Source: Bimastos eiseni
Lineage: Eukaryota > Annelida > Clitellata > Crassiclitellata > Lumbricidae
Length of the DNA: 64,000 nucleotides
NCBI GenBank assembly: GCA_959347315.1
Contig: OY365822.1
Location: forward strand, 6,373,367 to 6,437,366
Direction of reading: 5' to 3'
Shown: in pieces, positions 10,954-53,665 of the stretch
Position numbering within the stretch: position 1 is the stretch's first letter
Layout: every line of letters starts with the position of its first letter
The notes under the pieces: generated by a model
The model's input: only the letters and a program-made list of their open reading frames with translations
Databases searched by the model: none
What the model was told of the DNA's origin: nothing
Position numbers and translations under genes: made by a program

Positions 10954-11009
<56 letters not shown>

Positions 11010-13579: not shown

Positions 13580-13681
13580 ATGGAGCTACTGAGGTCTTGG
13601 AAAAACCCTGAGGAAGTCTATGCCCTACTCAGGTTTAAGCTTGGAGCGGGAAACAAAGCCCTTTCCAGGAACGATGATTCG
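13580..13681 (+). CDS. FDFT1: orphan/alternative squalene synthase first exon
   Basis: 102-base exon, 34 codons, starting [20 protein letters not shown] and ending at a strong donor (TCG/gtaagt). It matches the first exons of copies A, C and D in length, phase and sequence, but no exons 2-8 follow before copy A's own first exon at 18336. It has a good start context (ACCATGG). Two readings: an alternative, perhaps ancestral, first exon that splices into copy A exon 2 at 18990, or the remnant of a lost fifth copy. Its clean frame and donor favour use. The leader differs from the A/C/D leader, so it has a different promoter. Confidence 0.8.
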
Positions 13682-14448
13682 GTAAGTAAATTCTAATAGG
13701 TTCAAATAAAAACAATGGGACTGAAACGACTCAAAGGGAAAGAGACAATTCATTTATTTTGCATATTAAACTGCAAGTTAGGCCTACTCAGCTTTAACAG
13801 GCTAGACTATAATTCAGTACATTCCGGAGCCAACAACAGTGTAGACGGAACAGTGGCGTCGCCAGAGCTTCGAGGCTAGGAGGAGGCAAAAAGCCTCTAA
13901 CGACTACAGCGGACATAGGGAAGCGTCGTAAGTTTCACTATCGGGTCTGCAGAATTTTAAGCATTTGATGCCAACTGGAGTACAGTTTGGACCATTGTTT
14001 GCCTCACATTTTCAACTATTCTTTCTAAATAAAAGTACCTAAAATTTGTGACAGAGTTTGACTTTATAATAATATTCAGAGGATGTTAAATATGAAATTG
14101 CAAATCACAAACCACATGGGGCCCCCTCCACTCCCATGTAAATGCTCATCGTATTTGCTTGAATCCTAAGACTTAGCCTGGCCAGGGACGGGGGGGGGGG
14201 GCAACCGCCCTCCTTGCCCCAGTGGCGACGATAATAAGACGGAGCATAGGCCCAATACAGAAGAGTCAGTGAATCTTGCTATAATGCTGATGGCCGGTCC
14301 TATCCCTCGCCGTCTCATCTTCCCACTGACAGTGTACGGTCAATGTACTCATCATAGCTGTGTTTTGTTAGGGGCGAAGAAATCTCGAATAAAATTTGTT
14401 CGACTGCTGGAATTTTAACCCTAACCTCTCGATTTACAGTCAAGCACG

Positions 14449-14492
<44 letters not shown>

Positions 14493-14539
14493 TCAATTTC
14501 TACAATGATAAACTACTGAAGTCTAGGAACACTCTGAAG

Positions 14540-16716
14540 AGGGCTATGACCTATGACCTAGGTAATTGTGGCGTACACCGTTCGGACGCTACCAGGTCGC
14601 GCAACGGTGTCGGCTCCAGCCCTCTTCTGTGTCTGGAGCCACTCGAGTCACTTCTAAGTCGATTTTTAGTATAGCCTGACTGTTCTCCATCTCTGCCTAT
14701 CGTAGCAGTGACTGTCAGAGGAGAATCGGGGTTGACCGTTTCTCTAAAAGAGGCAACAGTATATGACTCTGTCTCGGGATCAGACTCTATCTCTTCCGCG
14801 GTCGCCGGATGGGCAACGTCCTGAGGATGGCCTTTATTCAGAACAGGGTGCGCTCTTTTACCGACCGGAGTCTTCCCTCGCTCTTTTACCGACCGGAGTC
14901 TTCCCTCGCTCTTTTACCGACCGGTGTCTTCCCTTTCTTGTTTGCCCGCTTAGAGACGGTTTTCCTCTTTCTCTCTACCTGACCTGAGCTTCGTCGTATC
15001 ATTCTACATCTCGTGACTCTTAAACAATCGCCAACAGGGGGCATCAAACGTTCTCCCTGTTCCGGAGAGCAGAAATATTTGTAACAAGTCCCTTCGTCAC
15101 TTTGCCATAGGCAATACTGGTCAATGATCTTAACGTCGCGTTTTCCCAGACACTTATCCACCGGAAATCGTACCTTCCACTCTTCATGTACCTCTCGCTC
15201 CATGTCCGTGTGTGGGATACCGGCCTCACACGTATAAATTATCATGCACCACGATTGACCGTCCTCTGTGTTATGCAGTTGTCCACCAACACCGTAATAT
15301 ATACTGAGACTTCGGGAAAACTCGGTGAGTATCTATGACCACGTTAGGTAGCCAAGAAGAATATTTATCGAAAAACCGTAATACAATCAAGAAGAGATAA
15401 CGCGGGGAAACCGCGATTATAGATACTGCGATCAGACACACAAGTAAAGATATCGCGGAGAAACCGCGAGTAAATATATTGTTGTGATCAGACACACAAG
15501 TCAAGAAACCACGGAAGACCACGGGAGTAAGTATGACCACGTTAGGTAGCCTAGTATATATATTACAGGGAAAAGAATATGAGGAAACACCCACAATTAT
15601 TGAGGTCTTCGGCACCAGTCACGACCGTTTCTTGTAATCGTTTTAAGCACCAATGGGGTCACCTTCCTCGTATTTATCGAACGTATACACTGGGAAACTT
15701 TCCCCGTATTTATCGAACGTATTCAATGAGAAACTTTCCCCGTATTTGCCGACGGTTCCACCGGCCTCTCTCTCGGTCTGTACGGTTGCTACTACGGGAA
15801 TCTAGCCGGCGTGTATCTCTAGCGGCCACCCTAATTTTCTCGATCTCGGCCACCGAAACTTTCGATTGCGGCCACCCGAAACTTTCACGTATCCAACAAC
15901 CTGCTGGAAAACGGTAGGATTAACTATGACCGGGCTAGGTAGCCAACATTTATATTTCTTGGTTACTCTCACGGTGCGCGGTCGGGGATTTTTCCCAGTC
16001 TATCTGTCTGTCGGCCGCCGAGGCCTCTCTCTCGGTATATGCGGTCGGTCCCTTCTGGGACTCACCCAGTCTGTATCACTCTCGGCCACCCGAGATCCTT
16101 CTCGGTCTATACGAACGGCTAACCCGGGCTTTACCCGGTCTTTACACAGACCTGTGATTTCTTTATTTCACTGTCGGATCTTCCCGAGGAAGCAACCTCA
16201 CAATCGGCTGCAGACTTTCTCGCGATCGATAACAGGGTGGGACCCCAGCCCTATCAGATCGGCGGAGTCGGTCTCAACACCAGACGCTCGGCTGTAGCTC
16301 GGACTAGTTTTTGGACACCCTCTCGTCCGCAACTACATTTGTTTCGCAACTTGCCGTGAATCAGGCTTTGAACGAACGCTCACCGACCACACGGGTGTGC
16401 GGTATTAATCGCTAACCAAAGAATTCAATGCACCGTATATGCAGAGCAGTCGTCACCACTCTACAATATAAGCGACGCACCACATGTCAGGCTATACTCA
16501 ACCCGATTCATGCGTCTGCACGCTATGCACAGAACTACAAACCGCCGATCGGTCTTCCCTCCAATAACAACACCGAAAGTAAATTAAGCGCTATGGCGAG
16601 CCGATTATTTACGAACTAATTCTTTAAACCAAGCCTTGTGGCCTGTCCGCCACATAATTATTAAACGGACAAATTCTAGAGCGCCGCAATACAGCCATGC
16701 CCCTACAAGGGCGCTT
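14540..16716. mobile_element. unrecognised GC-rich repeat block, possible retroelement relic
   Basis: Base composition differs sharply from the surrounding AT-rich DNA. It contains a 28-bp tandem triplication with GACCGGAGTCTTCCCTC at 14853-14935, three copies of a motif like TATGACCACGTTAGGTAGCC (near 15333, 15531, 15925) and two GATCAGACACACAAG segments (near 15430 and 15486). GATCAGACAC also occurs at 43582 and 44093, suggesting family relation to the GC-rich stretch at 43750-44330. No reverse transcriptase or transposase motif was seen, so the class is open. Confidence 0.4.
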
Positions 16717-16894
16717 GAACGATGACAAACCTCTAAAGTCCATGGCCTAAATGACAGGGCATATGATTGACGGTTTATGTTACGGTAGAAACAATGTCAA
16801 GTCGAGTTAGTTGAGGAATGCGAGGACTGGATTAAAACCAAGGCCAGACCAGGACACCGCATCGGATGCGACAATATCTTTACTAATTACAAGT

Positions 16895-17184
16895 TTTTCT
16901 ACTTCTTCTCCTCCTTCTTGTTCTTTTTCTTTTTTATTCTTCTAATTCTAATTCTTCTAATTCTAATTCTTCTAATTCTAATTCTTCTTCTTTTTCTTCT
17001 TCTTCTTCTTCCAATTCTAATTTTTCTTCATCTTCTCCTTTTATAATTCCAATTTTAATTCTTCATCTCTTCTCATTCTAATTCTAATTCTTCTTCTTCT
17101 AATTCTTCTTCTTCTAATTCTTCTTTTTCTTTTTCTTCTTCTTCTTCTTCTTTTAATTCTTCTTCTAATTCTTCCTCTTCTTCT

Positions 17185-17216
<32 letters not shown>

Positions 17217-17292
17217 CTGCTCCTCGTCCTTTTCTACGTCTTCTTCTTCTTCACCGCCGCCGGCGTCGTCGTAATCACCACCACCACCACCG

Positions 17293-17333
<41 letters not shown>

Positions 17334-17372
17334 GTCATCGTCATCGTCGTCGTCGTCGTCATCGTCATCATT
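16895..17372. repeat. polypyrimidine tract followed by CAC/CAT/CGT microsatellite
   Basis: About 330 bases almost entirely C and T on the plus strand (TTC, TTCTAA and TCC units), then trinucleotide repeats to 17372. Such mirror-symmetric tracts can form triplex DNA. Short minus-strand frames made of Met or Asp runs here are repeat artefacts. Confidence 0.85.
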
Positions 17373-17939
17373 ATATTTTCGCCATGAGGTACTTCGTTTC
17401 CCAGGGACTTACTGATCATTGGCGTGTTAAATTAGTTGTCCATGGTCTGGCCTCATCTTCGTGGCGAGGCGCCCTTGAAGTTAATATTATACATGTAATT
17501 GTTTTATTATTATCATTATCATCGTTATCATCATCATCATTAGGCCTATTGTGATTCTCATCAGCATAATTTATTATTATCAATCACTGTAGTTAGGCCT
17601 ACTTGAACTTCCTTGGGGTAGGCCTAGAAGGTATCAACCGAGATCCCACAAAAAGTGATTCCATTAACAGGTCAATAGGCCTACCCGCTGGAGATTATCC
17701 CGTCATGACGGAAAGGCAGCCGATGGTTGCGAAGGATAAGCAATTTGTGACCTTGTAAATTCAACACGAAGTGAATTACAGTAATCGACACGAATTGAAC
17801 CTAATGCTATTTTAAGGATTTCACATGGTAAACACGTGCTACTATAGGCCAATTAGGCCTATAATAATACGCAGGAGACGTGTAGAATAAGTTTAGCCTT
17901 CAATATTGGCCTAGACCTACTTGCCGCGACTGAGACAAC

Positions 17940-18335
17940 CTTCACAACTATTAGGCTGATGATGAGTCTGTGATGGAGTGGCCTATGATATCGGTCGCTT
18001 TGCAGACAATGTGATCGCTATTTATTATCTAGCTGCCTGCGATCTTGTGACGTCATGGGATATAGGCCTACGTGCGGTGTGGCTGCATGTGTCTATCCAT
18101 CGCAATATAAACTTTCTAACTTGGTTTAATCGTTCAATTCTAATGCCTCTTGCATAGATCAGCGCTGTTCTAGGCTACACTTTCAGCCATATTTGCCAGT
18201 TTAAGACCATTGCGAAGTGATTAGTGATATTTTTAAAGGATTAGGTCGCTTCCATCGACTGGTGCTAGATCAAAACGTCCTCTTCCCATGCGTCTATAGG
18301 CTCTACCTAAGGATACCGGCTCAATTTCTACATCG
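17940..18335 (+). promoter_or_regulatory. copy A promoter and 5' leader
   Basis: Aligns by eye with the regions upstream of C and D. A shared core CATCGCAATATAAAC holds a TATA box at 18106-18111. About 55 bases upstream is the palindrome TGACGTCA (18048-18055), a CRE/ATF-type site; the same position in C is TCACGTGA and in D TCACATGA. The leader to the ATG is about 200 bases and, in the coding frame, carries a stop before the ATG, which supports the start at 18336. Confidence 0.6.
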
Positions 18336-21300
18336 ATGGAACTACTGCAGTCTTGGAAATACTCTGAAGAGGTTTATGCCTTGCTCAGATATAAGTTTGG
18401 AGCGGTAGGCAAAGCCTTTTCAGAGAGCGATAGCTCGGTGAGGAAATTGAATTAAGTTGAAATTTCAAACTGAAGGGCATTAAGTGAAGTTGAGGAGTAG
18501 AATCTGCCTGGAATGTGTAGACCCAGACAAATGTTTTATGACCATTTACCTAAATTTGGATGAGCGCGAACGGTGAAATGTACATATACCACGTTGTTTT
18601 TAAAGTTGATGATGTGCGCTATATAGCCTATATATAAAAGTCAAGAGGAAGAGAGGGAAGTGGATTGAGGAAGAACAGGACATGCCGACAGACGAATTCG
18701 CCGACTTACATTTGTAATTAAAGTAACTGATTTTTGACAAAAATAGGCATCGATTCAGACCGTACTCAAGCCTCCTATTCACAATTATTAGGCAACGTAC
18801 ATTGTAGATGCAGGCAATAAATGCATATTCACAATTATTAGGCAACGTACATTGTAGATGCAGGCAATAAATGCCTATTCACAATTATTTGGATGCGGAC
18901 ACAATGATAAACCTTATAATTAGTTGTTGATTATGCTAATTGGACAAGCATCGTAACATACTAATTAATTATTAATTTTGTGTTTGTAGAAGTGTTTTTC
19001 GTCTCAGCTGAATAAATGCTACGAATATCTCGATAAAACGAGTCGAAGTTTCGCTGCTGTTATTCGAGCACTTGATGATGAATTAAGGTTTGAAGATATA
19101 TAAGTATTCATTTTGTTTCATCTTCATTTAATTTGTGCATTGTGTTTGACTGTTACCTGTCATTCAGAAAAAACAATTGATATTTCACACAGATCTTCCA
19201 TGGCGTCGATAATGTTAGGGGCCGTTCACATATTATATAACGCTCAAGGGGTAGGTGGGTGGGTTCCGGTTTTGTTAGCGTTATATTGTGTAGGGTGGGG
19301 GTAGGTTGAAGGTTTTGTTATATAACAAACTTTTTTCAACTCATGCTATTTTGCCTGTTTGCGTGCCAATTGGAAATTCCATGTACTACGGACCTTCATT
19401 GTTTAATCGAAGTTCACAACACGTTGTGAACCAAAACTAGCACCATTAGCTGCCACGTAGTGAATTGATTTGAAGTTCTTAGTTATTATTTTATAAATCC
19501 ACTTTAACAATATGCTGTTTACAATTTTAACAATTTCCTGTGCATAGCTCTAAACGCTCTAATAATTCAATTCGGTGAGCTGTGTTTTGATTCTGGTTTA
19601 AATTAAATTAATTCACTTGAAATAATTATTTTGGTAGGTATTACAATGATGTTTAATTTCATTTTCTATAATATGTGTAAATAGTTTATGTTTAGGGCCA
19701 TTTAAATTGCGATTATTAAGTTGCAGAGGAGCTCCATACATGCGGTCTAATCATCATTGGCACGAGAGAGTACACAATTTTAAGGCAGCTTTTGTTACAT
19801 AGCTAATTGGGGATATGATGATTTTTACTGCAGTTCTTGAATTGGATAAAGGCAATTATCAGTTGAATCACTACTACTAAAGTGCTAACTAAAGTCATAT
19901 TGTTATAAAAGTGTCAAATTGTGCAATAAAATTATGTCTATTGTATGTCTTTTAATGTGCTTATAGGCTGGGGTGGGGTGGAGTATGGGGTGGGTAGCAT
20001 ATCTGTTATATAATATAGGGGTGGGGGGGGTCACAGCTGCTGTTATATAACGTTATTGGGGGTAGGTGTGGGTCAAAAATTGTGATTTTATGCTTTATAA
20101 AATATGTGAACGGCCCCTTAAACACCTCATCCTCATTTCTTTCCTGATCTATTGGGATAATGCCCTCATCTCCAGCCATCTTGACTACTGCAACACTCTT
20201 TTGACTGGCAGTTCAAAGGTAAATTATGAAACTTCAAAGAGTCCAAACATCCTTGGTATATTATGGTTATCGAGTTTTAAGTGAAACTATCAAATCCTAG
20301 CAGTGCTTTATTTGATTATTCGCTATATTGATCTCTCATTCATTCCATGATGCACTTAGAGATTGTAGGTTCAATCGATCACCTCTAAAATGATTGATAT
20401 GATTGGTTGGATGTTTCTCACATTCATTGATTTTTCATTTACAAATTATATCATGTATTCTCTAGGGATGCAGTCTGTATCTTCTATCTGGTTTTACGAT
20501 CCCTCGACACCGTGGAAGACGATATGACGATCCCACATGATGAGAAAGTCACACTGCTCCAGGAATTTTACACTTTCCTTGAGGATCCATCTTGGAACTA
20601 CACGAAATGCAATGACAAGGATCGCATTGTTCTCGAGAACTTTACGACGGTCAGTGTAAACTGTGGTCTTCAATTCTAAGGTTTGAATTTGTGCGTGCCT
20701 ACTCTACGCTTTCTTGGCAATATAGGTCCTACTCTGTTTGAATTTTAATCCAGTTCATGCCGGATAACTTGTTGATGGAAGCGTAAAGTTTCTTGGCTGA
20801 ACATTACAATTACACAATGCTGTAGCGTGATATTTGCCGCTAAAAGCAAGTTTTCATGCGGCTTTATTATTGTGTTTTTCTGCAGATATCTGCTCAGTAT
20901 CGTCTGCTGAAGCCAGTCTTTCGAGACGTGATATCTGACATCTGTAAGCGGATGGGAAGGGGCATGACGGTCTATTTGACAAGATCTCCTGGTTCTAGTC
21001 AACAGTGGGACGAGGTGAGGTTTATATTCAAAGTAGGTTAGTGCTTTTTAATGCATCTCCTGCTATTCCAATTATAAAGTGACTTAAATAAACTTATTAC
21101 ATAATATTTTATAATTAAATGCTGATTAAGTAATATAATTGAAATATCATTAATAATATGATTAAAGTAAGTAAAAAAGTATGATTTGCATTACGATTCA
21201 ATAGGTATGCGCATTATATATGCGTTGGTACGCACTAAACCGTATAAAATTGTATGGCTGCTTCTCAATGGTGACTTCGGTTAACTTGCAGTATTGTCAC

Positions 21301-23636
21301 TATGTTGCTGGACTCGTTGGTATTGGCCTCTCACAGCTGTTCTCAGCCTCTGACTTGGAGGACAGATTGGTTGGCGAGGACTCTGCTCTTTCCAATTCGA
21401 TGGGGCTTTTCCTTCAGAAGACAAATATCATCAGAGACTACCTGGAGGATGTCATTCAGGGTCGTCAGTTCTGGCCAAAAGAGGTGATTTATCTGACGGA
21501 AATCTTAGTATGATGTGATCTTAATCAAATTCAACTCTTGTTTAATCTGAACGTTCCTCGTTCTTTTCTCTAGTTAATATAACCAAAATCTTGAAAGGAT
21601 CAAATGTGTGTTCAACTTAGACGACCTTTAACAAGATAGAACAAGGTTGCTACATAAATTCTAGATATGCAAGAATGCATTCACGATGCACGTAAGCTTA
21701 TACATCTATAATTGTGAATTTGTCTAAGCGATTTATATAGGGTCTTTGGTATTTCATATAAATGATGCCTCTGTTGACCCACCTGAAGTTCTATAGTCTT
21801 TGAAACAGAGTTCATAATGACAACCATAGTTTCGAGATCTCGACGGTCCCCCAAAAAGATGGCACTAAGACAGTCAAAAAATAATCACTGCACAGACACC
21901 TGTTGTGTAACGTTACTGTAATTATGCTCACATTTTTACATCGCCTTTTCAAGAGAGTCCCGTCAGTGCAATGCTTATTTTGCATGTGGTGATTGAGTTC
22001 AATATGCGTTCTAATGAACTGAGGTGTTCCTCTTTCTAGGTGTGGAGCAAGTATTCCGAGAAACTACTTGAACTTTCTGACCCAGAGAGAATCAACGACG
22101 CCGTCAGTTGCCTAAACGAATTAATCACAAATGCACTAATGCACATTCCAGACGTTATGAAGTACCTGTCTCGCATTCAGAACGAGTCCGTCTTCATCTT
22201 CTGTGCCATTCCACAGGTGAATGAGAAGCAAAGTTAATGGTTAAGCTTAATTCTAATATGTTGCAAAATTGACCCTCACGCTGCTGTATGTGCGTGAGTC
22301 CGTCATGTTTAAAGATCATGAGTTGTACACACAGCGTTGAACTAAGTGCACGCACATACATGTACATTGTAACCCAAATGTAAGCTAACATTAACTGCCT
22401 TGTCAAGTATGAGTTTTTTAGCATTGACAAGATTGTCATTTTTAACAAGTCACGCATCTGTCTGCTTGTGCATTGCATAAGCGGAATATTAATTGATTGA
22501 TTGATTGGTTGGTTGATTGATAATTGATTCTTTCCCATTGTTTTCTGGTCGCTTTGTTGTGTAGGTCATGGCTGCGGCAACATTGGACAGATGCTATAAC
22601 AATCGACAGGTGTTCCGTGGAATAGTAAAGATTCGCAAGGGTGAAGCAGTTCGGTTGATGATGCAAGCATCAAACATGGACAATGTCAAAGCAATCTTTT
22701 TGCATTATCTCAAGCAGGTGGGTGACATTGCACACAAGAAGTTGGAAGATAAAATTGGCAGCTGTTGCTGCTGATGTTGGTTACAGATGAATGTAGATTT
22801 TGCAATTATGGTTAGGATGTTTGTGGAGTGGGATGTGGATAAAATTAATAAGCTTGTCAAGTTTAAAGGATTCAAGTATGCTTTACTTACCAGGATCTCC
22901 AACAGCTGACGGTGTTGACATCGACAAATGAAGTAGAACAATAGATATAATTATAGCCTTTAAACTGTCTTTGTTTAGGTCTTAATCACGCGATATGTGT
23001 TAGGATAAACATAAATATATCCTAAACCTAGATGCATGGATTAATCGATAGGTCTATACATTCACGGAGATGCAGTCTGCTCGTGATCGAATTAGGGATG
23101 ATAATGATGACAACAACAGCAACAACTATAGGTGATGATAACAACTGTACATTTGTATATAATAAATGATTAATTTTTATAGGGTGACCGTAACTAAGTG
23201 AGTTGTGGTCCTTCTTAGTTCTTCCTATTGACATAAGGACTTCATCCTTCCTGACGTGGCCTTTGTGGGCGTAGATTTATTTTCAAAGATGTTAATTGCA
23301 ATTGTCAAATAAATTTATTGATTTACTGTGAATTCAAATGATGGCCTTTGCAATATAAAGTAATGCCAGAAAATACAAGATTTCTCCTTATAGTTATATA
23401 GTTAACTCTACTTTGATTGTATCTGTGTTTTGTAGATTGAAAGTAAAATTCCCTCTTCAGATCCATCTGCACACGTCACTCGTCAGGCGATAGAAGTTGC
23501 GCTGAGTAAATGTGAAACCGATCAGGTCTACAGTTCAACCACTTCGATATATTTGCCGATCTACCTGTCATTTGCAATGCTGGTAATTGCTATCGTTTAC
23601 CACTATTGCACAACTTTTCTAGCATCCGTCCAGTGA
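18336..23636 (+). CDS. FDFT1: squalene synthase, copy A (canonical)
   Basis: Farnesyl-diphosphate farnesyltransferase: two farnesyl diphosphates to presqualene diphosphate, then NADPH-dependent reduction to squalene, on the ER membrane; first committed sterol step. Exons: 18336-18437, 18990-19087, 20466-20649, 20886-21014, 21292-21483, 22040-22216, 22565-22717, 23436-23636; 411 residues against 417 in human. All junctions are GT-AG and in phase. Seen: first Asp-rich motif DTVEDD (residues 81-86), catalytic Tyr in [17 protein letters not shown] (172 on), second Asp-rich motif DYLED (220-224), [14 protein letters not shown], and a C-terminal membrane segment about 384-402 ([19 protein letters not shown]). 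The pocket residues match the human enzyme, unlike C and D. The start follows homology with the other copies; an alternative first exon may be 13580-13681. Confidence 0.96.
18781..18886. repeat. 50-bp direct duplication in copy A intron 1
   Basis: A 50-base unit beginning ACAATTATTAGGCAACG occurs twice head to tail (18781-18830, 18831-18880) and a third copy begins at 18881. The two copies differ by about one base, so the duplication is recent. Confidence 0.9.
19218..20117. mobile_element. 900-bp inverted-repeat element, PIF/Harbinger-like MITE, copy A intron 2
   Basis: Both ends carry GGGGCCGTTCACATATT as inverted termini, and TTA stands directly outside each end (19215-19217 and 20118-20120), the 3-bp target duplication typical of PIF/Harbinger elements. 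Inner G-rich patches (GGGTGGGGG) lie next to both ends. No transposase frame. It is not in the corresponding introns of C and D, so it arrived after duplication. Confidence 0.75.
20121..20282 (+). mobile_element. LINE reverse-transcriptase fragment in copy A intron 2
   Basis: Encodes [16 protein letters not shown], which fits the conserved LDYCNSLL block found in CR1/L2/jockey-type reverse transcriptases, followed by a degraded continuation. Homologous pieces lie in intron 2 of copy C (about 37190-37390) and copy D (about 52435-52520), so the insertion predates the duplications. Confidence 0.7.
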
Positions 23637-24290
23637 ACTGACGAATTTCAATGTTCGCTGTGTACCTGAACATATTTTACTGTATCAGACATTTTTGTAT
23701 TGTGTAGTTTCATGATATATGTGATATTTATGCACGAATTATGTGATGAAGTTTTGTAACCTAGCTAAAATTGGCTTACATGGCTTTATTTTAGCCTCTG
23801 AGGTTAACTGGTGGGCCTTCATTTGTGCTGGAGTCATAACACTAAACCCTAGATTTCTGGTGCATCACTTAAGATCCAAGCGCAGGACCCGGATCATTCA
23901 GGAACGCTGTGGCGAGTATAAGGGGTTGTAGAAATTTTGTCAAAAGGACATAAGACATGTGCACCGGTTGCCAGAAGGTCAGACGGGGCAGAGTTGATAT
24001 TGTAAGTGGGTGTACGGAGTCATTGCTGTTTTGTCCACAACAGGTATATAGTCTACGCCTATTATCACTCGAGAGGACGCGGCGGGGACGTTGCGTGTCC
24101 CTACCGCTATCCCCTCCATCCAAGTCGTCGCTTCCCTTGAGCGGCGGAAGTTTAGCGGAAAACTGGGACTAACACGAGGTCTTGCTATATACTATTATAT
24201 AATATAAGTATTTTCAATACTGTGAATTGCATTTATTCGTTTAAATGTCGGTTTAGTTCCGCGTCTGCTTTATCGACGGCGGATAAGAAT

Positions 24291-24409
24291 CTCTACTCGG
24301 ATCATTTTCCACGCTTCACTCGCCAGGTAGCAGAAGCTGCGCTGATTAGACCTACATGTGAAACCTATTACACATGTCCGCCTTTCCACTTACCTGCCAT
24401 TTACAACGC
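24291..24409 (+). pseudogene. decayed squalene synthase exon 8 relic
   Basis: Reads SDHFPRFTRQVAEAALIRPTCET, recognisably related to the start of exon 8 in copy A ([21 protein letters not shown]), then loses similarity through the membrane segment except for CTGCCATTT. A small insertion (near 24345) interrupts it. Same strand as A and only 650 bases past A's stop, so it is probably the tail of a lost tandem copy. Confidence 0.6.
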
Positions 24410-24796: not shown

Positions 24797-25083
24797 GGCA
24801 ACTGGCATAGGACCAATATATATATATTATATATATATATATACAATATATATATATATATATGGTATGATGAATGACAGTACTTAGCTATATAACAGGC
24901 AATAGAAGCTAAACAACGGAGTTTAGGCATATTGAATTGCGATGGCTCAACATATGCACCCTGGCAGCACGTTATATCTCAAGCCGTCGTATGACGGATA
25001 AACATTACATAGGCGATTACATTGGTTGTAAAAACACAAAAATCAATTGAAAATTCGTCATCGGCCTTATCCTTTTGACAGGG
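24797..25083 (-). pseudogene. relic of a squalene synthase promoter region, minus-oriented
   Basis: Reverse complement aligns with the D and C promoter regions: AGGCCGATGACGAATTTTCAA, then ATATAACGTGCTGCC, then CCATCGCAATTCAATATG in place of the TATA core CGTCGCAATATAAAC, then TATTGCCTGTTATATAG. A short insertion breaks the TATA core. No first exon follows to its left, so it is an orphan fragment of a further lost copy. Confidence 0.5.
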
Positions 25084-27777: not shown

Positions 27778-27993
27778 GATTCGGACACATTGTCAGAGCG
27801 GACAGTTTGCCAACCTTCATACTACAGGGCTACGTGGATGGTAAAAGAGCACGGGGTAGACCTAGAAGATGGTGGATGGATGAGATCGAGGAGTGGATGA
27901 GACTGCCAAGAGCGGATTGCATCAGGAGTGCGCGGTACAGAGTGAGATGGAGGAAAATGACGACTTTGGCTCTGGCCTCCGATCCGCAGTAAT
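27778..27993 (+). mobile_element. LINE 3' end fragment where copy B exon 7 should be
   Basis: Open frame reading FGHIVRADSLPTFILQGY, GRPRRWWMDEIEEW and VRWRKMTTLALASDPQ then stop, the typical C-terminus of a non-LTR retrotransposon polyprotein (after the reverse transcriptase domain). It lies between B exons 8 and 6, opposite to B's strand, in the place of the missing exon 7. Confidence 0.8.
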
Positions 27994-29044: not shown

Positions 29045-29135
29045 AATAGACCGTCATGCCACTTCTCATCTTCCTTCAGATGTTAGTTACGAATTGCACT
29101 GGAGCAGCAGGAAGGGAAGACCACGAAGACACGAG
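29045..29135 (-). pseudogene. exon 4 relic inside copy B intron 4
   Basis: Reverse complement contains AACATCTGAAGGAAGATGAG then GTGGCATGACGGTCTATTTAA, a degraded second copy of exon 4 (ISDICRQMGGGMAVYLT). In-frame stops are present. The same relic is in C (38985-39062) and D (49920-50000) but not in A. Confidence 0.65.
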
Positions 29136-35909: not shown

Positions 35910-35948
<39 letters not shown>

Positions 35949-41371: not shown

Positions 41372-41409
<38 letters not shown>

Positions 41410-43241
41410 GAAGCTAACTTTGACCACCTCGTCAAGTATGAGTATTGATTTAGCGCCACCATTATTGTATTTGTTTATAAGTTGCCTCGGTGTGAACTTG
41501 GACCATGAATACAAAAGGATATTGATTGATTGATCGATTGATTACTACTACTGTTTTCTGGTGGCTATGTTGTGTAGGTGATGGCTGTGGCAACTTTGGA
41601 CAGATGCTATAACAATCGACAGGTGTTCCGTGGAATTGTAAAGATTCGTAAGGGTGAAGCGGTTCGGTTGATGATGCAGGCATCAAACATAGACAATGTC
41701 AAGGCTGTCTTTGGGCATTATCTTAGACAAGTGGGTGACATTGCTAGAGATCGTCATGATAAATCTTCTCCGTTTCTTTCTTTCCGAAGTCGCGTCACTT
41801 AGTTCCTCCGGGTTCATTCCGGTTTTTTCCTGTATCTCGTCCATCCGTTTATACATTGGGCGCCTTCGTTTCTTCCTTCCTTCTCCACACGCCAGCATCA
41901 TTTCCTTTTCCAATCCATTTGATCGCATAACAAGTCCAAAGAAGCCCAGCTTCATTCTCAACGCTGTTTGTTGTAACGTCTCAACATTCTCAACTCCAAA
42001 CTTCCTGCGCACCCCTTCGTTTGTCTTTCACTCTTTTTCTAGGTCTATAATATTCTCTGCATATTCGTCCATATCCACATTACGCATGCGTTCATCTTTT
42101 CTCTATATTCTTTGTCATTGTCCACGTCTCACAGACATATAGTACTGTATGGAAGACCATTTCCATCACTAGCCTTTTTTGTGTCTATGCTCACGTGTTT
42201 GTCCATCCATATCTTTTCCAGTTCATTTATTCTATTCTATTCTATTCCCGGATTATTTATAAATCGCCTCTCACAGTACAACGTAATCAGAGGCGCTCCC
42301 AGTGAGAAGGCCCCCTATAGAGAAAAGAAGTTTTAAGAAATTGAGCAGACACAGTTGTGCTACCGGTTAGGGTTGTAGTGCTAGTTATTCCAGCTTTCCC
42401 TATCGCCACGCTTCTTTTTATTTCCGAATCGCATTTTCCATCTTTTTCTATTAATAACCCCAGGAATGTGAATTAACTAGTCATTGTCCTCAATTTTGAG
42501 AACTTTCTTTGTGTTTTTTGGCCCGAAGTATAGGCCTTACGTGATCTCTCAGGGACTAGAATATGAAGAATTAGATAATGTAGTTTGGAATAGCCGTATG
42601 CTCGTCAGTCTCACAAATGGCGAAAGAGCGCTCTATGATGAGCGAAATTCGTTGGAACTTAGTTAGTTTATAGTGAACTTAAATTTGGTTTTGAGATTGG
42701 TTTTTTGACAAAATAGACAGAAACTACCAGATTGCTCTTTATACGCGCACATTTAACACTGATTCTGTCCGAGTTTAGTAAATGATAAACTTTCTATCAG
42801 GTGACCCCAGCTTAGCGAGTTATGGTTCTTCGTGGTTCTTATTTTTAACAAACGGGCTTCTACTCTGCTGGCGTGACTTTTTTGTGGGCAAAGAGATATT
42901 TTCAGTGATTTAACTTACAATTATCATCAAGATTTATTAGTCTTTAGTGGATTTAATTTGGTTTTTGGGACATACAGTAATGACAGAAAATCCAAGATTG
43001 CTTCTTACACCTATGCATTTAACACCACTTTGGTTCTGCCTGTGTTTTGTAGATTGAAAGCAAAATTCCCTCTTCTGATCCATCTGCACACGCCACTCGT
43101 CAGGCGATAGAAATTGCGCTAAGTAAATGTGAAACTGATCGGGTCTACAGTTCAGCCACTTCGATCGATTTACTGATCTACATGTCGCTTGCAGTGCTGC
43201 TTATTGCCATCATTTTGTATCCTGTGGGATCGTTTATTTAG
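35626..43241 (+). CDS. squalene synthase-like protein, copy C (pocket remodelled)
   Basis: Intact eight-exon frame of 407 residues: 35626-35727, 36581-36678, 38214-38397, 38637-38765, 39151-39342, 41062-41238, 41578-41730, 43053-43241; all GT-AG, in phase. Both Asp-rich motifs are present (DTVEDD, DYLED), as are the catalytic Tyr and FCAIPQ, so head-to-head prenyl coupling chemistry is plausible. Changes against A and human (human numbering, my alignment): Phe72 to Gly (CIGYLVLR), [10 protein letters not shown] to YCHYAIGVPG (Val175Ala, Ala176Ile, Val179Pro), Gly208 to Trp and Phe210 to Ile (LGWLILQ), Phe230 to Trp. The C-terminal anchor is altered: IAIILYPVGSFI, ending inside a repeat. Upstream, its promoter is separated by a 2.9-kb insertion. 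Could be a neofunctionalised enzyme or a gene beginning to decay; the frame favours function. Confidence 0.9.
35911..35945. repeat. TA microsatellite, copy C intron 1
   Basis: Pure TA run of about 35 bases. A similar run is in copy C intron 6 (41376-41405). Slippage-prone sequence. Confidence 0.85.
37190..37390 (+). mobile_element. LINE fragment with internal minisatellite, copy C intron 2
   Basis: Homologue of the 20121-20282 LINE fragment in copy A (shared CCTGATTATCCCTTGGGATAA-type start and AAGGTAAATTATGAAACTTC end). The middle is expanded into about six degenerate copies of a unit like CTCCAGCCATAT, absent from A. So the expansion happened within C. Confidence 0.65.
37690..37910 (-). 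mobile_element. tRNA-derived SINE, copy C intron 2
   Basis: Reverse complement starts with ACGGTGGCCGATTGG and runs through GTAGGGACCTTGAGCAAGTC and TTGCTCTGCAGTACAACTGC to AATTTTG next to an A/T tail. Same family as 55768-56017. The ACCTTGAGCAAG segment recalls the central domain of several deuterostome SINEs. Confidence 0.7.
38985..39062 (+). pseudogene. exon 4 relic inside copy C intron 4
   Basis: ATATCTGACATCTGAAGGCA then GATGGAAAGTGGTATAACAG repeats the exon 4 sequence in degraded form, with stops in the coding frame. It lies 220 bases after the true exon 4 (38637-38765). Confidence 0.65.
39913..40909. mobile_element. fold-back element FB2, copy C intron 5
   Basis: Left arm (39913-40020) carries ACCCCCGGACAATAATCCC-type units; the right arm (40810-40909) carries the inverted units (GGTAATTGTCCGGGG). 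Both inner edges read TAATGGTAAGAC or its complement. The plus-strand core at 40440-40600 (EQALQQL, then GGATTCTGACC and GAAACTACA) matches the FB1 core in opposite orientation. A SINE fragment is nested inside. Confidence 0.7.
40270..40420 (-). mobile_element. SINE fragment nested in FB2
   Basis: Same family as 37690-37910, lacking the tRNA-like head: it breaks off at GTGGCGCTTC, where FB2 core sequence begins. The flanking segment 40100-40200 is also a near copy of 37530-37625, so a larger unit of SINE plus flank is duplicated between introns 2 and 5 of copy C. Confidence 0.65.
41750..42190 (-). mobile_element. LINE C-terminal fragment, copy C intron 7
   Basis: Minus strand reads VCETWTMTKN, then FGVENVETLQQTALRMKLGF, FGLVMRSNGLEKEMML and MDEIQEKTGMNPEEL, the usual tail of endonuclease/reverse-transcriptase LINE proteins. 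It is frameshifted around 42020, so it is inactive. It lies antisense to C, directly after exon 7. Confidence 0.85.
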
Positions 43242-46232: not shown

Positions 46233-46700
46233 TCAGGCCGCTGGAAGGAAGTCAGAAAATTTTGTGCAATAGTGGTAAATTATAGCAATTACCAGCATTG
46301 CAAATGACATGTAGATCAGCAAATATATCGAAGTGGTTGAACTGTAGACCTGATCGGTTCCACATTTACTTAGCGCAACTTCTATCGCCTGACGAGTGAC
46401 GTGTGCAGATGGATCTGAAGAGGGAATTTTATTTTCAATCTTCAAAACACAGACAGAATCATAGCAGCGTTAAATGCATTAGGGAAAAGAACATTCGTGT
46501 AGGTTGTGGAACTTTTGTCTTTTCCAAGACCAAGTTAAGTTCACTTTAAACTGTAACTGATGCTTTTGAAAATTGAAACTTAAATCTTTGAAAATGTCTC
46601 TACGTCCACAAAGGCAAAGTCAGCAGAATTTGATCATCTATCATTATTGTTTACAAATGATAACTGTTATTGTTATCTATTGTTGTCATCGTCGTCGTTG

Positions 46701-46736
<36 letters not shown>

Positions 46737-49700
46737 CATTCGCATTATAAGCAGACTTGGCATAGATCTGCACGCATTTATAACGATTTGATTTTAGGAC
46801 GTTTGATCAACGGACGATTCCTCAACGGACGATTGGTCAAGCGGACTATTCGTGAAGGAAACTGTTAACCAAGGGTCATTCCGTCAACAAGACGGCTGAT
46901 CAGAAAATTTTATTTTCTATATTGGAGACGCCTTTAAAATAAATCAGTTCTCCTATCAGCATAGGCCTACAAACAACTGCACAGTAACGCGTTAAAATGA
47001 ACTCAACGCCCATGTCAGTTCTCTTAACAGTTTGCTATACATGAAATCGATGAACATACTTACGTGTGTTGTTTTTAAGAATAACAATACTTATTTATTT
47101 CATGCTTTATTTTCAACTATGAACTTATAAATTTATGAATTTATCTATCTATGAATCACTTCACCTGTTTTTACAGATATTTTTTGACCAACCGCATTGC
47201 GTGCTTTGTAAACTATTAACTTCATAGCCTTAGTAATTGCTTTATAAACTATAAAATTTATAACCCAATTGATTGCTCTATAAACTATACATCTCTTAAA
47301 ACGTCACATTTTTATCAAATATTTCTTGAACAACCTCATTGACTGCTCTGTAGTGGACTAGTGATCAACCGTCCCCTTGACGAACAGTCCGCTTGATCAA
47401 TCACTATTGACCATGCGTCCGTGATCAACCGTCCTTTGAACAAACGTCCGTTGACCAAACGTCCGCATACCATCGATTTATTAATGCATTCAGGTCTAAG
47501 CCTATGGCCTACATCTATGTTTGTCCTAACATAACGCTCGATAACGACCTAATCAAAGAAAATATTTTGGCTACTATTCTTCATCACTTCTGTCGATGTC
47601 AATATCACGAAGGTAGGTAGAACAGGCTCGAAATCCTTAAACTTGCCGAGATCATTATTGTCATCCACATCCCACTCCAACAACATCCTAACCTTAATTG
47701 CAAAACCTGCATCCATCTGTTACCATCAGCAGCAGCAGCAGTAGCTATACGTTTTATCTTCCATCCTCCTGTATCTGTATGCAATGTTACCCACCTGCTT
47801 GAGATAATGCAAAAAGATGGCCTTGACATTGTTCAAGTTTGATGCCTGCATTATCAAGCGAACCGCTTCACCCTTACGAAGCTTCACCACTCCACGGAAC
47901 ACCTGTCGATTGTTATAGCATCTGTCCAAAGTTGCCACAGCCATCACCTACACAACATAGCCACCAGAATGCAATAGTAATAAATCTGTCAATCAATCAA
48001 TTAATCAATCAACCCATCAATCAATCAATCCATCAATCAATTAATCAATCAATTAATCAATCAATCAATTAATTAATCAATCCATCAATATCCCTTGTAT
48101 TCATAGTGCAAGTTGACGCCTATTCACTTAAAAACAATGACAATAATGGTAGTGCTAAAACATAACTCCTAAGTCATAATTACTGACGAAGTGGTCAAAG
48201 TCAGCTTCACTATACACATACATATATATATGTATGTATACAGTGAACCTATATATATATATATATATATAACGATGAACGGATAAAAAGCGAACCTCTA
48301 GAAAAACTCGTAACGTTCAGTGTGTGCTGAGTGAGCGGGTTCAACCCTCGTCCGAGGCGTCAGTCACCGAGTAGGGACCTTGAGCAAGTCCTTCGTGCAC
48401 AATTGCTCTGCAGTACAACTGCCATTGCCCCGTCGAGGCATGTGCACTTCTGAGCAAGAAATGTTGGAAGAAGGGCGATATCAAATTTCGGCAATAATAA
48501 AAAAAAATCTATATATTTGCTTTTATCCGTTCACCGTGTATTTAATAGACACGTAATATAGGAAAAAGCAGACGCAATGTAAATTTATTATGTGAGCAGA
48601 TAGATATATTCAAGGAACAAAAAGCCAATGTGTATCATTTAAGCACAGCAGACTTAAATACGTACAACAACGTGAAGGTCAGATAGAAAATGCTTCACCC
48701 GTTTGTGTTTGCTTCACCTGTGGAATGGCACAGAAGTTGAAGATTGACTCGTTCTCAATGTGAGACAGGTGCTTCATAACGTCGGGAATATGAAAAAGTG
48801 CGTTTGTGATCAATTCGTTTAGGCAACTGACGGCGTCGTCAATTCTCTTTGGGTCAGAAAGTTCAATTAGTTTATCGGAATACTTGCTCCACACCTGAGA
48901 AGAGGAAAACTTCAGTTGGTCAGAACAGAGATTGAACCCGATAACTTCTCATAATAGGGTAAATTGCAGAAATAGCCCATGAAAAATAAAGCTTTGATAG
49001 TCTCTCTGGAAAAGGTGCTACATAAATTTTATTACAATTAGGTCACACAACGTAGGCTTACATGTAGACGTGCATCGTTGAGGAGTTATTAAATTATATG
49101 CTTATGAACGCTTTAGGTCTACTCTTAAAGACTAGAAGTTCAGTTAGGTTAGCATAAGCAGCAATTATGAAAGAGTCACCCATCCTCTTCAAGTGCTCAA
49201 ACTCTTTTGGGATATCTCTTTCCCACTCTAGTCTTCCACTGTCTCTCTCGCACTTTTCTCAAAACCTGTTTCTTCTCCCGGTGTACTTGCGCTATAGGAG
49301 CGCTCCTGAAGGCCACACTGGCCAATATAGAAGTTGCTAAATACATTCATTACATCAACCAAAACGCTACATTCATTGCATATACAGAAGCTCAATTACA
49401 GAATTATGCATCTACCAGATTGCAAAATTGTGTCATCACTTCACCTGAAGATGAATACATTCATCTTCAGTTGAAAATACTCGTGATTCTTTGTGAATAC
49501 TGGGTCATAGGCCAACAATCAAATTATGCGAAAAGAGTAAGTAGGGATGATACTTAGCTAGAGCTGAATTAGATTAGGACTATACCATGCTAGGATTGCA
49601 ATAAGAACAGTCACCTCTTTTGGCCAAAACTGACGATCCTCCGTGACATCTTCCAGGTAGTCTCGGATAACATTCGTCTTCTGAAGCATAAGCCAGCTCG

Positions 49701-52700
49701 AATTGGTAAGATCTGTATACTCAGCCACAATTTTGTTCTCCAAGCCCGATGCTACGAACAGCTGCGAGAGGCCAATACCAGGGACTCCGATAGCGTAGTG
49801 ACAGTACTGGAAGGTAACCGCAATAATGTAATAATTTATGACACAGCTTAGCACTTACATAACACCATACGACGCGCATTACTATATGTTGAACTAGTTG
49901 TACAATAGACTTAGGAGATTCGGATTAAATAGACTGTCGTGCTACTTGCACTTACCTACATAGGCTATATATGTCCGATTTGAACTGCACTGGAGCAGAG
50001 GGAAGGGAGAACTAAATTGGTAAACGACAGCAATTAGCAGCATTGCAAATGACAGGTAGATCGGCAAATATATCGAAGTGGTCGAACTGTAGACCAGATC
50101 GGTTTCTATGAAGACAAGAGGAAGAATCAGGATAATTATGATGTCAATATTCACATAACATAGCGTTCTCAGTGTTCTGTCTATCTTTATTAAAGACATA
50201 AACGAACATGTGATTAAGGGAACAGACAAAAGTGCATTATTGCCAATAAGCTTGTGACATGTCAAGCGATCAACTTTAAAGGAAAGTTATGCTAGTACGA
50301 ATATAAACATCACCTCATCATACTGTTCAAGGGAACCGATAGACTTTGTTGAATAGACAGCCATGCCACCTCCCATCTGCCTGCAGCAGTTAGATATCAC
50401 TTCTCGAAAGATTGGCTTCAGCAGACGATACTGCGCAGATATCTGCAGGAAAACACAATCGCAAGAAAAGTAGCTTTAATGCGCAATCCTGATGTACTAG
50501 CACATTGTGCAATTGCTAAGTTCAGTTTGGCAATTTCACACCAGTAAGCGATTGTAATTCCCAACATTTCCCAGATCAAAATTCAAACAGAATATGACCT
50601 CGACTTCCACCAACGGCCAGCGTAGAGTATAGACCTACACAAATTCACAGTTTAGAATGATTGACAGCAATTTTCACTGACCGTCGAAAAGTTATCGAGA
50701 ACAACGCGATACTTGTCATTGCACTTTGTATAGTTCCAGGATGGATCCTCAAGGAAAGTGTAAAATTTCGGAAGCAGTGTGACTTTCTCATCATGTGGGA
50801 TCGTCATATCGTCTTCCACGGTGTCGAGAGCTCGTAAAACCAAATACAGGATACAGACTACATCCCTAAAGAATAGAATATTATCTGTCAATGAAAATCG
50901 GCGAATGAACCAAATATCCACTCAATCAAATCAATCAATTCAATCATTAGAAAGCTGATCGAATGGTTTGGTGCTGCCTCTGTGACCTGTCACTGCCAAT
51001 ATCGGTCAAAGGTCTCTCCGATCTGCTACTTGGGAGGGGGTTGACTGTCCTCTTCGCCAACACTTCTATGATACAGAACCGGGCCTTTGCTGTGGTATGT
51101 CCAGTCCCATGAAATGGGTTACTCCTACGAGCTTCGACTTCTGCCCAAAACCTCCTCATATGCATTCTATTCATAAAAACTGCGCTTTATAGCCGTAGTT
51201 TGATCGGGAGCGCCTATGAGTAGATATCTTGCAGGGGCGCAATATTAAGTTTTATTGATCGATATATTGATTGCGCCTATAATATCTCAGTGCATCATGG
51301 AGCGTATGAGAGAGTGAGTAATCATTTTTAGTGATGCTCACATTTGAAGGTTTTACCTGGGACTAATATGGCTTATAAATTACAGATTTTACTTGTAGCT
51401 ATATATGACAATAGGTCGAGAATTTGTGGAAACTTAGAAGTTTCATCATTTAATTTAGAAATCCAGTCAGAAGATAGCTGCAGTAGTCGAGATGGCTGCA
51501 GAGAAGGGCATTACGAAAGAAAGAAAGAGGATAGGGTGTTTAATCCCATCAATACCATGGAAGATCTGCGCGAAATTTTTAATACAATGCAAAAATTAAG
51601 TGAAAATGAAACAAAAGAAATACTTATATATCTTCAAACCTTAATTCATCGTCAAGTGTTCGAATAACAGCAGCGTAACTTCGACTCGTTTTATCGAGAT
51701 ATTCGTAGCATTTCTTTAGCTGAGACGAAACACACTTCTGCAAGCACAGAATTTAATCAGCTGGAAATAATTAATCAACATGTTTCGATACTTGTCCAAT
51801 AATATGTGACTAAAATAGAGTTCCTTTGACTTAGGTTAATTTACATTAGTTCGAATACGCTAATTTATCTGACATTTTTCAAATATATCTAACGGCTAAT
51901 TATACATGACAGTCATAGACGGTCCATAAATATTCAATTATCTTGATTTACCTGTCGCAAATTGGTCGATAACGTTATCAAAATTTGTTTTCTCCAATGG
52001 TTCTCGTTCGATGCTAAGAAGAGCAAGATCGCTGAGACAATCTTGTCTCATTGAAGCCAGTAAATACGACATAATTAGCTTCAATTTCTAAAGGACCTCT
52101 CACAGCTTGCCATTCAAGCTTTTATTGGAAGGATCTGCAGTGAAAGGCGTTGGTTTGAAAATATGTCATGAGTATTATGTCGTTCCTTGCGGGTTCTTAG
52201 TGATTACTGATCAGTGGGGCCCTGGGGCGCCAAAATCATGCGCGACAACCTTTAAGTAATGAGGATATTTGGGGGGCGCCTAAATTGAATCTTACAAACT
52301 TAGCTGGGATAAAATAGTTTGCAACACAACAAAAGTGATAGTTTAAATTCTCATTTTGCCACCCCCTTCTAACTTTGCGCCCGGAGACACGTGTCCCCTC
52401 TGACCCCCTACCCTAGCTACACCGCTGCTCTAAACATCTGGACTACTGCAACTCTCTTCTGACAAAGTTAATCATGAAACTTCAAAAGTCCAAATTTTCT
52501 TGGTTTACTGTTATATGGCTATAAGTTTTATTGTGCGGATTGCACTCAGTGTGCGTTGAGTGAGCGGGTTCTGCCCTCGTCCGATGAGACACTGTCAAAT
52601 ATAATCATTATTTGATTTTCCTGCTCACTCACTCCATGATACTGATAAAGAGAGAGAGAGAGAGATTGCAAACTCAATCAATAATGATTGATTTGATTGA

Positions 52701-53665
52701 TTCTGTGTTTGTTTTTATCTGAATTGCATCCTTCTCCCTAGCTACGCCTCTGTTGTTATGTTTTCTTTGGACATTATCTCTAGTTTTGAATATCTTTATA
52801 CTTAAACTAACAAAGAACGGTGTATTTATTAAAGAGAAGGAACCGACGAATGGTAAATTAAGCTAACTGCACTCTGTATGTATACCTCAGTCTTGGGATA
52901 CCACCCCGCAAGCAGAGTTAACTCATCAAGGCTGCAGCGGGAAACTTCGGTAAGTGCGTACGTAGTTTGCCATGATTAAACGAACATCCAAAGAGCGTTG
53001 TGAGACCCGCCGCCGACAGATGGCAAACGGATTTTTAGGTGGTGGTTCTTTGTTAGGTGGTGGATCTCAAAATACAGGTGGCGTATCTCATTTGGTCAGG
53101 AGGTGGATCTCAAAACCGAAGTTGCCGGATCTCAGATCTGGCAAGGTTCGGTTGAAGTTAACCACTGTATGTAATGTTCTCTACAGAGCTCATACCGCCA
53201 ATCTATTCAGTGATGAAAGAAGTTCGCCTTTCGAATCTATTAACAGAAGGGTTGGTTAAAATTTTTAATGATGTTTTTTATCGAGAATCGTAGCGAATTT
53301 AATCATCATATAAACGAATTACTATTAACAAGCTCCAGGTTGGGGTATTCATTTACACGTTCCACCACAGTCCATTACCTAGCAGATTCCAGCCTTGGTT
53401 TTATAAAAATCTGAGCTACACAACTATTTAACACGCTCATTCGATAACTATTACGGATTTAGAAATGCAATTGCCTAGGTCAATTCATTCCACCTATTTC
53501 TCTTCCTCGTCTAATTCGCTTAGTCACCTAGTTCTAAATTTGAACAGATATGAATTAACTCACCAAGCTCTCGTTCCCGGAACTGGCTTTTCCACCCGCT
53601 CCAAACTTATATCTGAGCAGGGCATGGACTTCTTCAGGATAGTTCCAAGACCTCAGTAGCTCCAT
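46233..53665 (-). CDS. squalene synthase-like protein, copy D (pocket remodelled)
   Basis: Intact eight-exon frame of 413 residues on the minus strand: 53564-53665, 51640-51737, 50682-50865, 50314-50442, 49615-49806, 48718-48894, 47795-47947, 46233-46439; all GT-AG and in phase. DTVEDD, DYLED, YCHY and FCAIPQ are kept, and the C-terminal membrane segment ([19 protein letters not shown]) is complete. Changes against A and human (human numbering, my alignment): Phe54 to Tyr (SRSYAAVI), Phe72 to Leu (CILYLVLR), Val175Ala, Ala176Ile, Val179Pro, Met207Ser, Gly208Trp, Phe210Met, Asp118 to Tyr (NDKYR). It shares the AIGVPG helix change with C and exons 6 and 8 closely with B. Intron 3 and exon 4 are identical to C. 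Probably functional, with changed substrate pocket. Confidence 0.92.
46700..46735. repeat. CAT microsatellite, copy D intron 7
   Basis: Run of about 12 CAT units; His and Ser frames through it are artefacts. Confidence 0.85.
46796..47466. mobile_element. fold-back element FB3, copy D intron 7
   Basis: Left arm (46796-46905) has units such as GATCAACGGACGATTCCTC and GGTCAAGCGGAC; right arm (47350-47466) has the inverted units (GATCAACCGTCC, TTGACCAAACGTCCG). The core is AT-rich without a frame. Same construction as FB1 and FB2 but a different unit. Confidence 0.7.
47978..48092. repeat. ATCA/ATTA tetranucleotide repeat, copy D intron 6
   Basis: About 110 bases of (TCAA)-type repeats. The same tail (ATTGATTG) stands at the matching place in C (41520-41545) and A (22490-22520), so it predates the duplications. 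Confidence 0.8.
48310..48515 (+). mobile_element. tRNA-derived SINE, copy D intron 6
   Basis: GCGGGTTCAACCCTCGTCC (B box), then AGGGACCTTGAGCAAGTCC, TTGCTCTGCAGTACAACTG and a poly-A-like AATAATAAAA end. The 5' part with the A box is missing. Same family as 55768-56017. Confidence 0.75.
49920..50130 (-). pseudogene. exon 4 relic invaded by an exon 8 relic, copy D intron 4
   Basis: The exon 4 relic known from B and C (here 49920-50005) is preceded, in minus-strand order, by a 105-base fragment of exon 8 (about 50005-50110) reading [20 protein letters not shown]. The fragment starts after TCTTCATAG and ends in TTTACCAATTT. The minus-strand frame is open for 107 codons but does not join exon 4 in phase at the visible AG. 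Confidence 0.75.
52212..52437. mobile_element. non-autonomous DNA element with CAGTGG/CCGCTG ends, copy D intron 1 side
   Basis: Begins CAGTGGGGCCCTGGGGCG and ends CCTAGCTACACCGCTG, the familiar short imperfect inverted ends (CAGTGG...CCACTG type) of animal hAT-like non-autonomous elements. No frame inside. It lies in the 51738-53563 intron. Confidence 0.55.
52545..52600 (+). mobile_element. short SINE head fragment
   Basis: TCAGTGTGCGTTGAGTGAGC then GGGTTCTGCCCTCGTCCGA matches the head/B-box part of the 55768 SINE family; the body is missing. Confidence 0.6.

Follow-up and report, generated by a model that had tools for sequence, protein, structure and literature searches.

Both plants and algae have squalene synthase duplicates that gained new functions (PMC12219392, PMC4823828). 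The Euphorbia peplusol synthase EpSS-L1 is a neofunctionalized squalene synthase duplicate that keeps the DxxED motifs and is changed at pocket sites, and seven positions, including F69, A173, and T208, were swapped to interconvert squalene and peplusol synthase (PMC12219392); in the alga Botryococcus braunii, LOS and SSL-1, SSL-2, and SSL-3 are duplicated squalene synthases, of which LOS keeps the listed catalytic residues while its substrate and product differ (PMC4823828). No neofunctionalized squalene synthase of an animal was found in the open literature by titles and abstract beginnings (echinoderm, annelid, earthworm, FDFT1 paralog, and animal terpene enzyme topics). Here we analyze a stretch of 64,000 nucleotides from the lumbricid earthworm Bimastos eiseni (GCA_959347315.1, contig OY365822.1, here C17, positions 6373367-6437366; below, the window), which holds four copies of the squalene synthase gene FDFT1, named A to D, within about 40 kb (positions 13580-53665).

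Copy A is, judging by its sequence, the canonical housekeeping squalene synthase, B is a pseudogene, and C and D are intact and carry a changed substrate pocket. We give roughly even chances to the reading that A makes squalene and that the genome has retained C and D as squalene-synthase-like enzymes whose substrate or product is altered.

The FDFT1 cluster

All four copies were found by tblastn with the human FDFT1 sequence as query (best exon E-value 3e-28; residue positions below follow human numbering). Their order is A>, <B, C>, <D, with A and C on the plus strand and B and D on the minus strand. The spliced models of A, C, and D have eight exons each, open frames, and GT..AG at every intron, and exons 1-7 have the same lengths in all three (102, 98, 184, 129, 192, 177, and 153 bases). 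These coordinates and open models bear out the preliminary description of three intact eight-exon genes and one pseudogene. Copy B has stops in exon 3 (F*LVLR) and exon 4 (IQ*YDE), its exon 5 ends after about 109 of 192 bases, and neither exon 1 nor exon 7 of B is detectable by sequence comparison across the cluster. A C-terminal hydrophobic stretch, judged by eye, is present in both C and D, and the C-terminus of C is shorter and changed.

The domain PF00494 is matched by A (152 bits), C, and D, and the squalene synthase equivalog TIGR01559 scores 486 bits in A, 433 in C, and 451 in D, at a cut-off of 287. Together with the exon E-values, these scores exclude chance similarity. In the whole genome (660,451,143 bases searched), a 176-residue human FDFT1 probe gave 11 matches, every one inside the cluster. 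A profile search found one further PF00494 match (C1:529674-529802, 34 bits, cut-off 26). It was not counted as a fifth FDFT1 copy, as the FDFT1 protein search had no match there; its minus-strand open frame is putatively NDUFAF6-like, which would make it a different member of this domain family.

Catalytic core and prenyl-tail pocket

The three intact proteins were compared with 132 references, that is, 131 listed matches, picked by similarity to A and D, and the human sequence; the Brassica fusion P0004 was trimmed to 410 residues before comparison. The set of 16 catalytic residues includes K117, N215, R218, R228, K315, and R317. The DxxED pairs, S51, S53, Y171, and Q212 are named in PMC4823828. 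None of the 16 is changed in A, C, or D, as in 118 of the 132 references, the other 14 of which change one or two. The residues kept in C and D comprise the two DxxED motifs, the S51/S53 flap, Y73/R77, Y171, Q212, and the JK-loop residues K315/R317/K318. The JK loop is unchanged in C and differs in D only by I316L, and the sole change at the proposed cofactor-site residues is F54Y, in the flap of D; for this reason C and D would be expected to release a reduced product rather than an alcohol.

The pocket is different. Sixteen residues contacting the two farnesyl diphosphate (FPP) tails are named in PMC4106277. None is changed in A, six are changed in C (F72G, V175A, A176I, V179P, M207G, and Y276F), and seven in D (F54Y, F72L, V175A, A176I, V179P, M207S, and Y276H), so that the conserved hydrophobic prenyl-tail pocket is found in A and not in C and D. 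Among the references, 93 have no such change, 26 have one, four have two, eight have three, and a single one has four. At the F72 codon, TTC in A and B, copy C has GGC and copy D has CTG, which are different two-base changes at one pocket codon.

A similar pattern emerges from the 101 columns that are conserved at >=97% among the references. Copy A breaks three of them, C breaks 13 (eight in exon 5), and D breaks 11 (six in exon 5), with the exon 5 share exceeding expectation in both (hypergeometric p 0.007 for C and 0.045 for D); 121 of the 132 references break at most one. Pocket positions are in excess among the broken columns of D (p 0.014-0.021 at three thresholds).

Selection on C and D

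Selection was measured with a three-taxon codon model on the first 400 codons, whose partitions omitted exon 4. In the exons other than 4 and 5, purifying selection acts on C and D jointly: the ratio of replacement to silent rates (omega) on their pooled branches is 0.48 (p 0.003 against 1). For D alone it is 0.40 (p 0.018), and for C alone 0.55, which is not significantly different from 1 (p 0.085). The preliminary description had named relaxed selection on C and D as grounds for abandoning its view; the pooled estimate speaks against such relaxation, with the reservation that C by itself does not reach significance.

Exon 5 behaves differently. On the C and D branches its omega is 4.9 (p 0.002 against 0.444, a value taken from a fixed-kappa fit), and the two copies differ from each other there by 13 replacement changes and one silent change, a richer share of replacements than in the rest of the gene with exon 4 set aside (Fisher p 0.015).

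When neutral evolution was simulated with 0.12 changes per site in each lineage, counting only stops, the frame stayed open in 14 of 2000 runs for C and 12 of 2000 for D; the numbers, again of 2000 each, rise to 52 and 44 at 0.08 and to 195 and 162 at 0.05.

Possible functions of C and D

On the reading that we favor, exon 5, whose product lines the substrate cavity, would have changed in an early duplicate, from which B, C, and D then arose. Copy B died; C and D would have remained intact, exchanged sequence by gene conversion, and been preserved by purifying selection in the exons other than 4 and 5. In both proteins the two DxxED motifs may still hold two prenyl diphosphates, which would be joined head to head via a cyclopropyl intermediate. 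The reshaped pocket would then alter either the prenyl diphosphate that is accepted or the way in which the cyclopropyl intermediate is resolved, and the output might be a squalene analog or a mixture rather than merely more squalene. The new prenyl coupling suggested in the preliminary description thus stays a possibility, which the pocket changes strengthen.

Several observations weigh against this reading. Both C and D pass the equivalog cut-off for squalene synthase. The omega of exon 5 is not by itself significantly above 1 (p 0.067), and this exon was chosen for testing after the data had been inspected. Two references, the plant sequence Brassica P0004 (16) and P0119, of 356 residues (11), equal or exceed D in the number of conserved columns broken, and the pocket excess among the broken columns is not significant for C (p 0.10-0.13 at three thresholds). 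The V179P replacement could damage a helix instead of reshaping the pocket. Finally, there is no sign of a wider expansion of the triterpene pathway in the genome, with one cyclase locus (PF13243, with a lanosterol-synthase-like exon recognized by eye) and polyprenyl synthase matches (PF00348) at three places, on C1, C3, and C6, both counts being lower bounds; a search of the genome with PF13249 gave no match.

The strongest competitor is that C and D are extra squalene synthases, serving dosage or a particular tissue, with pocket changes that are tolerated drift and squalene as the product. Their excess of about 150 bits over the equivalog cut-off, the complete catalytic set, and an omega below 1 outside exon 5 all agree with it, as does the likeness of the first exons and upstream DNA of C and D to those of A1b, the second first exon of A. 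It has to accommodate, however, the replacement of so many near-fixed pocket residues, at positions where most references have no change, and a divergence of C and D in exon 5 that is rich in replacements, unlike the rest of the gene. By sequence both proteins still belong to the squalene synthase family, and the pocket changes lower the claim that they function as squalene synthases; we regard this explanation as unlikely, though a serious one.

It is considerably less probable that catalysis is impaired in C and D and that they serve in regulation or binding, for instance by holding FPP or interfering with A. V179P and G208W might block or distort the cavity, but all 16 catalytic residues are kept in both copies, which would be unexpected had catalysis been lost long ago. 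We give slightly less credence still to the view that decay is turning the duplicates C and D into pseudogenes like B. The dead copy B in the same cluster, the nonsignificant omega of C alone, and the altered C-terminus of C are in line with decay; the pooled omega and the rarity of open frames in the neutral simulation are not.

In a bolder form of the favored reading, C and D would be squalene-synthase-like enzymes that, as the first from an animal, make a new product, a head-to-head-coupled hydrocarbon other than squalene; they would have evolved through substitutions in the pocket of a duplicate, with gene conversion homogenizing parts of the other exons. This we propose only tentatively, as possible but rather doubtful. 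Squalene synthase commits the pathway to sterols, and the references show hardly any variation in its substrate cavity. Two selected copies with a rebuilt cavity beside a normal copy would be a natural test of a change in squalene synthase product, so far shown in algae and plants. If such a product exists, it might bear on an old question, namely what "squalene" earthworms make, to which the titles of Wootton and Wright 1960 and of Voogt and others 1975, cited in PMC10077716, refer.

Probable duplication history and gene conversion

In global alignments, intron identity is 43-72% between A and the other copies and 48-78% between B and C or D. For C and D, introns 2, 4, 5, and 6 reach 79-86%, introns 1 and 7 only 53-59%, and intron 3 is fully identical (100%). 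Stretches that are not truly alignable contribute to the low values. Informative sites favor the pairing of C with D in intron 6 (19:2:2), intron 2 (14:9:5), and intron 4 (15:6:7), and give it no lead in intron 5 (9:9:6). The start of exon 5 in B, HYAIG, is the changed form shared with C and D. This shared form points to a likely history in which A came first and the common ancestor of the other three copies followed, C and D being the closest pair.

The preliminary description had read the strict alternation of the genes as growth by inverted duplication. Four genes alternate strictly with a chance of 1 in 8 under random orientation, and orientation alone is therefore weak evidence. The probable order of the copies in time is also their order on the chromosome, which is consistent with such growth.

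The identical C/D tract of 507 bp, which comprises the end of exon 3, intron 3, exon 4, and part of intron 4, indicates a recent gene conversion. Exon 6 is 99% identical between B and D, and the silent divergence (dS) is near 0.05 for exon 3 of A and C and for exon 8 of A and D, versus 0.25 overall. We read these patches, together with the identical tract, as probable patchwork gene conversion. Exon 5 stays apart, with a dS of 0.41-0.45 between A and C or D; values are similar in exon 7 (0.34-0.41) and exon 4 (0.33).

Except where C and D share the converted intron 3, the introns of any two copies differ by at least 14% and mostly by more than 20%, a divergence far above that of alleles. For this reason we reject, as extremely unlikely, the explanation that the cluster is an assembly artifact made of haplotypes or misjoined copies: a contig N50 of only 0.5 Mb and incomplete phasing would leave room for it, but the cluster contains no N gap, and PMC11408909, which gives these assembly figures, also reports HiFi coverage of 32x, a QV of 57.4, and 8 haplotypic duplications removed by the curators. 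The concern about collapsed haplotypes raised in the preliminary description is thereby answered in favor of separate copies. The only N run in the window (200 N at 59361-59560) lies outside the cluster, beside low-complexity repeats.

Origin of the sequence and relatives in other species

From the sequence alone, the preliminary description had tentatively linked the cluster to echinoderms and their production of triterpenoid saponins. The source is the earthworm B. eiseni, and both FDFT1 and COX1 speak against an echinoderm, which leaves the saponin argument without footing. In an FDFT1 tree of 46 rows, A, C, and D stand together (100/100) within a group of 11 rows (96/91) that includes the annelid Lamellibrachia; seven named echinoderms and two further rows form a separate group (100/98) without them. 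The COX1 gene on a contig of 15,339 bases (C118) is 97% identical to that of Eisenia nordenskioldi and 94% to that of Amynthas, and it has AAA at the conserved lysine of STNHKDIG, where the echinoderm code would give asparagine. Six nuclear stretches (on C15, C16, C5, and C4, and two on C6) also match the COX1 domain end to end (profile positions 1-435 of 436); they are long nuclear mitochondrial insertions in the earthworm.

Among the 120 listed of 2812 matches, no relative of C or D in another species exceeds 57% identity. No lumbricid squalene synthase is recognizable by name among the matches listed, which makes this comparison uninformative on the age of C and D.

Relics, repeats, and neighboring genes

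The features of the window are collected in Table 1. The extra first exon (18336-18437), exon relics, and promoter-like relics mentioned in the preliminary description are all present by sequence comparison. The extra first exon, A1b, is closer to exon 1 of C (87%) than to exon 1 of A (80%). Around the first-exon relic between the two first exons of A, a wider match joins 14474-14552 to 35592-35672 of C at 78% identity. The promoter-like relic near the expected first exon of B resembles the DNA upstream of A (17942-18157, 66%) and D (54088-53884, 73%). The partial second copies of exon 4 in intron 4 of B and of C probably derive from an old internal exon duplication. The exon 8 fragment within D might have been inserted recently or might serve as an alternative last exon.

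Dispersed repeats with 78-93% identity (37524-37836/40105-40418; 37690-37873, 48310-48508, and 55806-56008) sit within introns of both intact pocket-changed copies, C and D, as well as past the first exon of D, and are possibly mobile elements. A sterol-response element with one mismatch just upstream of exon 1 of A (13568-13577) was not counted, as the frequency of such sites in the window is near chance: eight occur, against a shuffle mean of 6.5, and eight or more were seen in 30 of 100 shuffles. The 20 open frames scanned in the window suggest no metabolic gene cluster besides FDFT1.

Table 1. Features of the FDFT1 cluster and its surroundings (positions in the window)
Feature	Position	Strand	Remarks
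Mitochondrial DNA polymerase exonuclease exons	10054..11712	-	Upstream neighbor
Copy A	13580..23636	+	Canonical squalene synthase by sequence, 411 aa
A exons	13580-13681, 18990-19087, 20466-20649, 20886-21014, 21292-21483, 22040-22216, 22565-22717, 23436-23636	+	Last exon incl. stop
First-exon relic	14511..14548	+	Between the two first exons of A; 85% to A1b over 38 bases
A1b, second first exon of A	18336..18437	+	Same phase, GT donor
Weak exon 8 relic behind A	24284..24368	+	68%, E 8e-4
Second promoter-like relic	24936..25081	-	72% to 32419-32275
Copy B	27067..31252	-	Pseudogene
B exons 2-5	31252-31152, 30229-30052, 29767-29639, 28911-28805	-	Damaged; stop; stop; truncated
B exons 6, 8	28283-28107, 27273-27067	-	Exon 6 99% to D
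Partial second exon 4, intron 4 of B	29031..29089	-	80% to A exon 4
Promoter-like relic	32268..32470	+	Opposite to B, near expected B first exon
Copy C	35626..43241	+	Intact, 407 aa, pocket changed
C exons	35626-35727, 36581-36678, 38214-38397, 38637-38765, 39151-39342, 41062-41238, 41578-41730, 43053-43241	+	
Tract identical in C and D	C 38375..38881 (+) = D 50704-50198 (-)		507 bp; from the end of exon 3 into intron 4
Partial second exon 4, intron 4 of C	38986..39061	+	76% to A exon 4
C exon 5	39151..39342	+	V175A, A176I, L178V, V179P, M207G, G208W, F210I, T214A, I216V, F230W; DYLED kept
Copy D	46233..53665	-	Intact, 413 aa, pocket changed
D exons	53665-53564, 51737-51640, 50865-50682, 50442-50314, 49806-49615, 48894-48718, 47947-47795, 46439-46233	-	
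D exon 5	49615..49806	-	V175A, A176I, L178V, V179P, M207S, G208W, F210M, I216V; DYLED kept
Exon 8 fragment, intron 4 of D	50018..50106	-	Sense direction; 96% to A exon 8
SUEL lectin exon	62968..63339	+	Downstream neighbor

Comparison with known systems

The domain of the animal FDFT1 (human structures 1EZF, 3WEF-3WEK, and 3VJ8) extends along D (phmmer E 6e-123). What sets the earthworm locus apart from it are the four copies in 40 kb and, at the contacts named in PMC4106277, the replacement in C and D of 6 and 7 of the 16.

The preliminary description had assumed one squalene synthase gene per animal, a rule that has exceptions among the matches listed, in turtles and a gecko. Second FDFT1 copies or isoforms of the turtles Chrysemys, Emys, Macrochelys, Pelodiscus, and Carettochelys (P0042, P0063, P0071, P0089, and P0102) resemble C and D in that A176 is changed in 5/5 and F72L is present in 3/5. 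All five carry A176V, L211I, and Q212E, and four carry N215I; Q212E and N215I are not shared by C and D. Pocket changes also occur in the gecko Paroedura (P0073) and the frog Pelodytes (P0050), and Macrochelys, Carettochelys, and Paroedura have a normal FDFT1 copy or isoform besides. To judge from these cases, B. eiseni is probably not alone in having altered FDFT1 duplicates, which may have arisen several times in animals.

Like EpSS-L1 of Euphorbia and LOS of Botryococcus, C and D are paralogs that share their genome with a canonical squalene synthase. The algal LOS is 52.5% identical to its squalene synthase (PMC4823828), and C and D are much closer to A (79% between D and A). The Euphorbia positions F69, A173, and T208 correspond to human 72, 176, and 214, as mapped through Brassica motifs and not through Euphorbia sequences. 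Among the seven swapped positions given in PMC12219392, C is changed at three (F72, A176, and T214) and D at two (F72 and A176), in each case to other residues than those of Euphorbia. By the same mapping, neither C nor D is altered at N215, T299, C303, or K318, unlike peplusol synthase, and the loss of reduction proposed for that enzyme is therefore not suggested for the two earthworm copies.

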